DNA of 64,000 nt. It comes from Diaphorobacter sp. HDW4A (lineage in GTDB: Bacteria; Pseudomonadota; Gammaproteobacteria; Burkholderiales; Burkholderiaceae_C). The stretch lies in assembly GCF_011305995.1 (NCBI RefSeq), contig NZ_CP049910.1, forward strand, positions 2,542,001 to 2,606,000, given 5' to 3'. Made by a program: the position numbers and the translations under genes. How positions within the stretch are numbered: the stretch's first letter is position 1; each line of letters begins with the position of its first letter. Shown here in pieces: positions 24,977 to 62,325 of the stretch. A model generated the notes under the pieces. The model ran no database searches, was not told the DNA's origin, and was given only the letters and a program-made list of their open reading frames with translations.

Positions 24977-25404
24977 CTGGCCGGGACTGCCCCCAGCTGG
25001 GCAGTGACTTTTTTGTTTGCGCACAAAAAAGTCACCAAAAAATGCGCTTGAAGTCACACGATAGAGCTTCCTGCGCGACTGCGTCGCTCCGCTCGGACAA
25101 CTATCGTGAGTCAGAGTGCCAATCGGAGAAGGCGACGAAATACACATCGCCAGCGCACTGCGTACCCAACTGCGCACTCCATCCCACATCCCTCTCGTAT
25201 CTCGCGAAGTCGCGAGATGAACAGGCACGAGCGCAGCAAAGTGCCGAACACACCTCCCCGCATTCCACTGACTCGCGGCGGTTGTCCGAACGGAGCGCGC
25301 AGCGCGCAGTGAGTTCTGCCGCGGGTATCGGAAGCGCGTTTTTGGTGACTTTTTGCGCGCAAGCAAAAAGTTACTCCGCCGCCGGGCGGAACTCCCGGCC
25401 TCCG
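24977..25404. repeat. Composite inverted-repeat element A
   Basis: A 428-bp non-coding element bounded by GGCCGGGA...TCCCGGCC. The two halves are diverging copies of one unit: after the outer arm each has a hairpin (left 25004-25035, 13-bp perfect arms GTGACTTTTTTGT/ACAAAAAAGTCAC; right 25345-25374, 12-bp arms with one mismatch), then CAAAAA..GCGCTT, then a CGC-rich block around GCTCCGYTCGGACAAC. The centre has a perfect 9-2-9 hairpin (25199-25218, ATCTCGCGA-AG-TCGCGAGAT). The same architecture recurs at 61782-62325. It fills most of the 526-bp gap between the Crp/Fnr gene and the kinase gene; open frames within it are not credible genes. Confidence 0.85.
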
Positions 25405-25466
25405 CACTCAACACCCCAGCAGAAGCCAGTCGAGCAAACACCACCAAACAAAAAGAGAACCGCCCA

Positions 25467-47151: not shown

Positions 47152-47389
47152 ATACCGCTCACCTCTGCTTCCCTTCAGGAAGCTTTAGCTGGTTAGTAAA
47201 CCTTCCGCGTCACGGCTGAACCGGTTGGCGGATGCGACTGTGGCAGGGGAAGGGGCCTAAGTACGGGCGCTATTGTGCCATCGAAGTGAGACACGTGCGC
47301 GACGCCTTGATGTCGGACATGTGCTTGTTCACAAAGCCACGGCATGTGCGCAAGCCCAAGTCGCGTACATTTGCCGGAATTCGCCTGAA

Positions 47390-61781: not shown

Positions 61782-62325
61782 GCTGGCCGGGACTCGCCCC
61801 GGCGGGCGAATTCCTTCTTTTGCTGCGCCAAAAGAAGGAATCAAGAAAAGGCGACCCTGCTGCCCACGACCCTACGCCCCGCTACGGGCAACCTGATTCT
61901 GCGGGTTCGTTCGGCGCACGGCAGGAACTCCCTGCGCTTCGCTCCTGTCAGACATCTGTCGTAAGTCAGTTCTTGAAGTTTGGATTGGCACTTGCCAATC
62001 CAAACCGCCGAACGAACCCGCAGAATCAGGCGCGGGCAGAAGGGCGTGAGTCGGCACATCGCTTCGCTCGTGCCCGTAGAAAGCAGTGCCGCTACCAATT
62101 GAGCCGCTGCGCCGTAGATACCATGCATCTCGCGAACGCGAGATGCAGCACGAGCGAAGCAACGTGCCGAACGCACCTCTTCCAAACTGACTTCCGGCGG
62201 TTGTCCGAACGGAGCGACGCAGTCGCGCAGTGAGTTCTGCCGGATGAATTCCAAGCGCGTTTTTGATTACTTTTTGCGCGCCGAGCAAAAAGTGATTGCC
62301 CCGCCGGGGGCAGTCCCGGCCTCCG
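61782..62325. repeat. Composite inverted-repeat element B, with nested inverted repeats
   Basis: A 544-bp non-coding element of the same family as 24977-25404, bounded by GGCCGGGA...TCCCGGCC. Left hairpin 61810-61841 (13-bp arms around CTGCGC) and right hairpin 62266-62296 (12-bp arms). The right half shares GGCGGTTGTCCGAACGGAGC (from 62196) and GCGCAGTGAGTTCTGCCG (62225-62242) with element A. The centre has a perfect 11-2-11 hairpin (62124-62147). The left half carries an extra perfect 25-bp inverted repeat (61892-61916 and 62006-62030) enclosing a 28-nt palindrome (61978-62005, 13-2-13). Open frames across it are not credible genes. It fills the 676-bp gap after fabI. Confidence 0.85.

Follow-up and report, generated by a model that had tools for sequence, protein, structure and literature searches.

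Candidate bidirectional transcription-boundary elements with a conserved RNA motif form a large intergenic repeat family in Diaphorobacter sp. HDW4A

Introduction

RIME, ERIC and Correia/NEMIS sequences are mosaic or hairpin-forming intergenic repeats that act on transcripts, and bidirectional intrinsic terminators usually consist of one symmetric hairpin that serves both strands of a convergent gene pair. In the portions of the literature drawn on here, the REP sequences, BIMEs and REPINs of Enterobacteria and Pseudomonas are intergenic, high-copy palindromes in inverted or mosaic arrangement, with proposed roles in termination and mRNA stability (PMC2817692, PMC3733652, PMC3116915). The Beta-proteobacterial repeat element (BRE), in the part of its description used here, is an intergenic and often tandem repeat of about 90 bp in Betaproteobacteria including Comamonadaceae, with 13 copies reported in Delftia acidovorans (PMC3110155).

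Here we describe two intergenic elements, A and B, from a 64,000-nucleotide stretch of the Diaphorobacter sp. HDW4A chromosome (genome G000; the whole stretch is “the window” below, and coordinates refer to it unless a genome is named), together with the repeat family to which they belong, for which no published description was found in the literature searched. Like REP sequences, BIMEs and REPINs as those portions present them, the family is intergenic, palindromic, high-copy, inverted and mosaic. The repeat unit here, however, is an arm of about 175 bp (176 positions) with several distinct hairpins, whereas REP and REPIN palindromes span 20–40 bp; the arms of one element differ from each other, and a conserved multi-helix motif is present. 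Also, unlike REP-flanked RAYT genes, the Y1_Tnp genes at the five loci examined have no arm beside them. The arms differ from BRE, as far as the portion used describes it, in size and arrangement, a distinction drawn by description in which BRE letters were not compared; RIME, ERIC and Correia/NEMIS are likewise set apart by description, not sequence, being smaller and from other taxa. With bidirectional terminators the elements share a position between convergent genes and, on either inward strand, a T-run behind a GC-rich hairpin, but they carry two separate terminator-like hairpins about 400 bp apart and a hairpin-rich interior. In position, then, the family is similar to known intergenic mosaic repeats, and none of those considered has its anatomy.

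Results and discussion

Anatomy of elements A and B

Structurally, a full element consists of two inverted arms of about 175 bp each around a centre of about 130 bp (spacers mostly 121–136 bp). From its outer end, an arm runs through the motif GGCCGGGA, a short GC-rich hairpin (H0), a 12-bp hairpin with a T-run as its 5' side (H1), a hairpin of some 60 nt built of an outer stem, bulges and an inner hairpin (H2), and a further hairpin (H3), and then reaches the central palindrome. The sequence-only reading had proposed that both elements are bounded by GGCCGGGA and TCCCGGCC, and these motifs do lie at 24979-24986 and 25393-25400 in A and at 61785-61792 and 62314-62321 in B; as an outer boundary GGCCGGGA is less sharp than proposed, with weak, T-rich conservation running some 35–45 bp further out. 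Its description of the right half of A as a reverse-complement copy of the left proved accurate (about 135 bp, 76%, E 3.6e-14), and the halves of B are inverted as well, their outer 49 bp being 73% complementary. The long strings it saw in both elements were recovered (GGCGGTTGTCCGAACGGAGC at 25277 in A and 62196 in B; GCGCAGTGAGTTCTGCCG at 25304 and 62225), whereas the GCTCCGYTCGGACAAC block that it assigned to every half occurs on both sides of A but in B on the right side alone, the left half of B carrying a much altered version. A chance origin is excluded by the whole-element RNA folds of both (z about −13) together with 89 related loci.

Element A (24979..25400, left arm, centre and inverted right arm) opens with its left H0 hairpin and T-run, which are terminator-like on the inward, plus strand (24986..25005, terminator scan), followed by the left H1 hairpin with 13-bp arms that are 100% complementary (25004..25035, inverted-repeat search) and the left H2 motif, whose sense strand runs outward on the minus strand (25054..25114, G000 2567054-2567114; covariance model, E 1.5e-15). 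The central palindrome H4, TCTCGCGA-AG-TCGCGAGA (25200..25217), was read from the sequence and is conserved in 34 aligned centres. Beyond it lie the right-arm H3 hairpin (25224..25245, plus strand, from the sequence), the right H2 motif with its sense strand outward on the plus strand (25268..25326; covariance model, E 3.4e-17), the right H1 hairpin (25345..25374, inverted-repeat search) and the right H0 hairpin and T-run, terminator-like on the inward, minus strand (25373..25392, terminator scan), with a weakly conserved outer tail, TCC...CAGCAGAAGCC, at 25401..25430.

Element B (61785..62321, GGCCGGGA to TCCCGGCC) is a junction of two arm types: its left arm is of a family-wide type, positions 1–111 of B matching many other genera, and its right arm is of a genus type. 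The left arm has an H0 hairpin (61794..61809, plus strand, from the sequence), an H1 hairpin (61810..61841, inverted-repeat search) and a diverged H2-like hairpin (61914..61969, minus strand), recognised from sequence only, left out of the H2 alignment and enclosed by a 25-bp perfect inverted repeat specific to B (61892-61916 / 62006-62030). The central palindrome H4, GCATCTCGCGA/ACGCGAGATGC, lies at 62125..62146 (from the sequence) and is followed by the right H2 motif with its sense strand outward on the plus strand (62187..62247, G000 2604187-2604247; covariance model, E 2.0e-19) and the right H1 hairpin (62266..62296, inverted-repeat search).

A protein-coding gene is ruled against by the lengths of 117 arms (169–183 nt), which when divided by 3 leave each possible remainder about equally often (41, 38 and 38), together with five ORFs over A and B that had no match to any Pfam domain or family; the same ORFs agree with the earlier statement that no transposase lies inside the elements.

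Family size, forms and modular arms

The sequence-only reading took A and B for a two-copy family, and this count did not stand: they are two of at least 91 loci in the HDW4A chromosome, where it had suggested looking for further copies. An iterated 176-position arm profile run over 407,008 fetched bases catalogued 141 arm matches in at least 89 loci, a lower bound, as the search was seeded from BLAST matches to A and B and covered the listed places only; with this catalogue, the proposal of a large intergenic repeat family is borne out. The catalogued loci divide into 42 full elements, 39 single arms, 4 minis and 4 of other form, the total of full elements varying with the filter (42 by length, 39 with both outer ends matched, 38 longer than 400 bp). 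Other searches of the chromosome gave at least 132 matching pieces with A as the query, 100 places with a 17-base core at up to three mismatches versus 20 for the reversed pattern, and 130 matches with an H2 covariance model, two of them at loci beyond the catalogue (414394 and 970778). The mini form is 76 bp long and built of the outer parts, and many single arms finish in a palindrome, sometimes followed by T's, that adjoins the neighbouring gene.

Compositionally, the family is a mosaic. No two of the 38 full elements are more than 91.2% identical over 400 bp (that is, they are at least 8.8% different), whereas arm-length stretches of 174–177 bp match at 96–97% between otherwise different elements, which points to arms being exchanged as modules. 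The two arms of one element are of unlike H0 type in 38 of 39 full elements (one like pair observed versus 14.9 expected, with a minimum of 4 in 5000 shuffles), and in HDW4A (39 full elements) their likeness falls below that of random arms from the same genome in 10 of 12 windows along the arm (at most 5% of shuffles as low). The corresponding figures are 6 of 12 windows in G003 (15 full elements) and 8 of 12 in G002 (15 full elements), where the arms are more alike in the last window; G004, with a single such full element, lay outside this test. The window comparisons indicate that base pairing of one arm with the other is not conserved. As a finding of its own, a rule against like arms was set aside and is retained solely within the tentative reading of a new kind of element given below, an ancestral unlike-armed element followed by module exchange being the plainer account and fitting most of the H0 data. 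The minimum-energy folds of the elements, each taken as one RNA, count against this and against the boundary reading: A joins its left arm to its right along most of their length, and B pairs at its outer ends with both H1 hairpins remaining local.

Along the HDW4A chromosome the elements are spread unevenly (28 of 89 in the 5.0–6.0 Mb bin, 5 in the 2.0–3.0 Mb bin). In genome G001, three arms lie in direct tandem about 235 bp apart (3259230-3259883), the arrangement elsewhere being inverted pairs. Some single arms adjoin an 84-bp palindromic repeat, CCCCTCAGGC...GCATGAGGGGC (L091, G000 near 1164394; G000 near 926639 and near 3423436; and L391), which once lies just upstream of a gene reading like rpsT and may be the published BRE.

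Gene context and terminator-like signals

Gene neighbourhoods were scored with a hexamer-based gene caller made for this analysis. Outer arm ends face the 3' end of a gene in 102 of 128 called cases (11 more ends had no called neighbour), the inner ends of single arms being mixed (17 to 14, with 8 uncalled). The 35 of 42 full elements with both neighbours called comprise 21 between convergent, 11 between tandem and 3 between divergent genes, and the minis are convergent in 4 of 4, versus 14 convergent among 169 element-free neighbouring pairs in the same fetched DNA; a cruder caller placed 23 of the 42 full elements between convergent genes. In the other 26 of 128 cases, the right end of A included, the outer end of the arm looks onto the 5' end of a gene, which weighs against a boundary function. 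The earlier reading placed both elements after a gene end; B sits between convergent genes for a short-chain dehydrogenase and an IclR-type regulator, whereas A sits between same-strand genes for a Crp-type regulator and an APH-type phosphotransferase.

On the inward strand, 109 of 117 arms carry a terminator-like H0 hairpin and T-run, and on the outward strand none of 117 does; shuffles of the first 45 nt gave a mean of 11.4 and a maximum of 17. What defines an intrinsic terminator in sequence, namely a T-run directly behind a GC-rich hairpin on the gene's own strand, is thus present in 109 of 117 arms, although, the T-run being inherited within one family, these are not 109 independent events. 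A scan of A found one terminator-like site on each inward strand. From stop codon to arm the median distance is 62 nt (93 ends), and another terminator-like site occurs in 14 of 93 such gaps versus 11 of 178 control gene ends, whose lengths were unlike those of the gaps, in a comparison made to see if arms take the place of ordinary terminators. In B, an ordinary terminator-like hairpin and T-run already precedes the element, so that, with the 14 gaps, some genes would be stopped even if the element were missing, a point against the boundary reading. Gene context and strand-specific signal together support the transcription boundary that had been listed among the possible roles, and the sequence lends direct support to a putative terminator for the near gene.

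Covariation, strand and recurrence of the H2 motif

The H2 domain, a 61-nt hairpin, was aligned alone because automatic consensus folding of the 117 whole arms, with their gaps, missed it; the alignment (A1) holds 40 sequences from this genome, the genus, other genera of the family, named Comamonadaceae contigs and one Burkholderiales MAG. Its 16-pair structure is paired in 96.3% of 628 cells versus 81.9% in shuffles, with changes on both sides at 12 of 16 pairs versus 5.8, and four of five measures were reached in 0 of 500 shuffles and the fifth in 4 of 500. Versions of the structure slid along the alignment were at most 50.5% paired, and RNAalifold returned 14 pairs, 10 of them changed on both sides. 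A single pair, 35-41, accounts for 12 of the unpaired cells, at a place where short inner hairpins align badly. By folding energy H2 alone is no stabler than shuffles (z −0.6 to −1.5), which counts against the boundary reading; the case for H2 is built on covariation. Counts for the H3 stem from the automatic search were unclear, and no result rests on them.

The mismatches carry a strand signature. Read on the arm-forward strand, H1 has 114 A-C and 4 G-T mismatches and the H2 outer stem has 70 A-C and 2 G-T, whereas H0 shows no bias (45 G-T, 45 A-C); alignment A1, read outward, has G-U in 44 cells and A-C in 13. These counts come from related copies and the events are not independent. An excess of A-C on the arm-forward strand corresponds to G-U on the other, which suggests that the folding kept is that of the outward-running strand.

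Taxonomically, the element occurs in 6 of 6 Diaphorobacter genomes searched, and B as a DNA query matched at least 63 of 150 genomes of the family, its own genus included. The H2 model matched at least 16 of 250 genomes of the order, 5 in the own family and 11 in other families (best E there 2.4e-14), and at least 6 of 274 of the class, including 4 from beyond the order (best E 3.6e-6); in both searches strict filters were applied to 19–21 candidates per genome, which makes the genome counts lower bounds. Outside the own family the model gave 68 matches, among which 8 neighbouring pairs lie within 600 bp, and all 8 are outward (left match on the minus strand, right on the plus) and 320–363 bp apart, an arrangement that matches A and B although these genomes, one unplaced MAG aside, gave the model no sequence. 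Covariation, together with the reappearance of the motif in other families, thereby supports the structured RNA that had been among the suggestions, and the covariance model proposed at the time has been built for H2. In Rfam 15, A and B had no match at gathering score; A alone, at E up to 1, had matches far below gathering score only, and six other loci had none at E up to 0.1.

Site history and the case for mobility

Repeats of this kind could also be non-autonomous mobile elements, REP- or MITE-like, whose hairpins a transposase acting in trans recognises as single-stranded DNA and whose gene-end placement reflects harmless insertion, a reading that we consider rather unlikely. It is favoured by presence throughout the genus genomes searched and by two sites that are occupied in certain species but not in another. 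Site A holds the element in G000, G002 and G004, whereas G003 lacks it and has the matching flanks separated by about 150 nt. Site B is occupied in G000 and G002; G003 lacks the element there, its flanks being about 165 nt from each other, and so does G004, where about 5 kb of other DNA separates the flanks with no element seen at either edge. Empty sites in related strains, which the sequence-only reading had suggested looking for, were thus found twice, both in G003, where they are too diverged to define ends or duplications. The near-identity of arm-length stretches between different elements also fits mobility, as would the mismatch bias if one DNA strand were the one folding.

Against mobility stands, first, the constancy of the sites. 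The sampled elements lie at a G000 element site in 15 of 20 cases in G002, 16 of 20 in G004 and 3 of 18 in G003, the samples being non-random and drawn from listed matches to A and B; for the two sister species G002 and G004 together this is 31 of 40. Form changes at such common sites: two 76-bp minis in G000 are full elements in G002 (474-bp), six full elements in G000 are represented in G004 by single arms, and one G000 single arm is a full element there. Sites are therefore mostly common to sister species while form changes. The identity ceiling among the 38 full elements shows no recent burst, no sharp end was found, and the right part of A had no match among 50,697 phage records. Among plasmid records, the right part of A matches one and the left arm of B two. 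A 37.8-kb viral contig (IMGVR_UViG_2617271037_000002; locus L473, 257-273) holds one exact H2 core about 9.8 kb in.

A search limited to the Y1_Tnp domain found a single Y1-type (RAYT-like) transposase gene in each of 5 among the 6 genus genomes, which would fit mobilisation in trans. The G000 gene (L194, 3933004-3933291), however, adjoins a gene reading like gltB about 23 kb from the nearest catalogued element, and no arm lies beside the transposase in any of the five 3.3-kb loci at E 10; a RAYT/REP link was rejected on these grounds. The locus in G002 has one 23-bp match to the fetched DNA, outside the elements. A MITE would have the terminal inverted repeats of a known transposon and no transposase gene inside; the elements have inverted arms and five ORFs devoid of Pfam domains, and no parent transposon is known, the transposase search having covered Y1_Tnp. 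Mobility in the MITE sense, as earlier suggested, was not borne out, given the Pfam-less ORFs, the missing transposase-side arm, the 91.2% ceiling and the 31 of 40 common sites. Spread to new sites must nevertheless have happened; examination of the Y1-type transposase loci of five genomes found no mechanism for it.

Proposed function and remaining alternatives

If the element encoded small structured RNAs transcribed outward from near its centre, with H2 as their functional core, for instance as a protein-binding site, its covariation, conserved loop letters and strand bias and the consistently outward close pairs in other families would follow, and the silence of Rfam would mark the RNA family as new. 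We regard such an RNA gene family as improbable: no promoter-like site was found in A, 34 aligned centres had no obvious promoter by eye, and 130 copies in one genome would be unusual for an sRNA gene. Least probable by our estimate, and quite unlikely, are passive long inverted repeats kept by recombination or replication slippage with terminator- and RNA-like looks that merely follow from palindromes, which would suit the form changes at one site (76-bp mini versus 474-bp full, full versus single) and the mosaic arms but would not be expected to produce the strand bias of mismatches, the conservation of unpaired H2 letters across genera, the gene-end orientation or the outward H2 pairing in other families.

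Gene-end placement of the outer ends, inward terminator-like hairpins, outward H2 and convergent context agree with one another, making a two-sided transcription boundary the most likely role. We therefore posit, with belief and doubt in about equal measure and judging from sequence, that A and B belong to a large mosaic non-coding intergenic family of bidirectional transcription-boundary elements that would act at transcript ends. Mechanistically, the outer end of an arm usually follows a gene, where the leaving transcript would meet the GC-rich H0 hairpin and a U-run and would be stopped in the fashion of an intrinsic terminator; with two back-to-back arms in a full element, both genes of a convergent pair would be served. 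A transcript that escapes would cross the centre and meet the far arm reversed, where the conserved H2 could fold in its sense orientation and act as a second barrier at the RNA level, or as a processing signal, so that antisense RNA would not enter the opposing gene. Two points count against a boundary role here: the outward H2 lies antisense to what the adjoining gene transcribes, and A showed no promoter-like site. What H2 does or binds in the cell, and termination there, we can only infer from these arrangements.

More specifically, and as a tentative possibility that we hold to be doubtful, the family may represent a previously undescribed kind of boundary element, in which two outward H2 copies about 270–360 bp apart are enclosed by back-to-back terminators and guard convergent gene ends across Burkholderiales and in some genomes beyond, with arms kept different so that each folds alone and the element does not become one long unstable palindrome.

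If a boundary role is correct, a widespread bacterial group would mark convergent gene ends with a large modular device, not a simple shared hairpin, with a new RNA motif in more than 100 copies in this genome, and the family would offer a natural system in which to study what limits antisense transcription where genes converge. Hairpin-rich intergenic regions in related Comamonadaceae may be explained by it too, and the changes among mini, single and full forms at common sites would allow the growth and loss of inverted repeats to be traced between species. Elsewhere in the window, a sucA RNA motif (Rfam RF01070) lies on the minus strand at 47156-47237 (87.7 bits).
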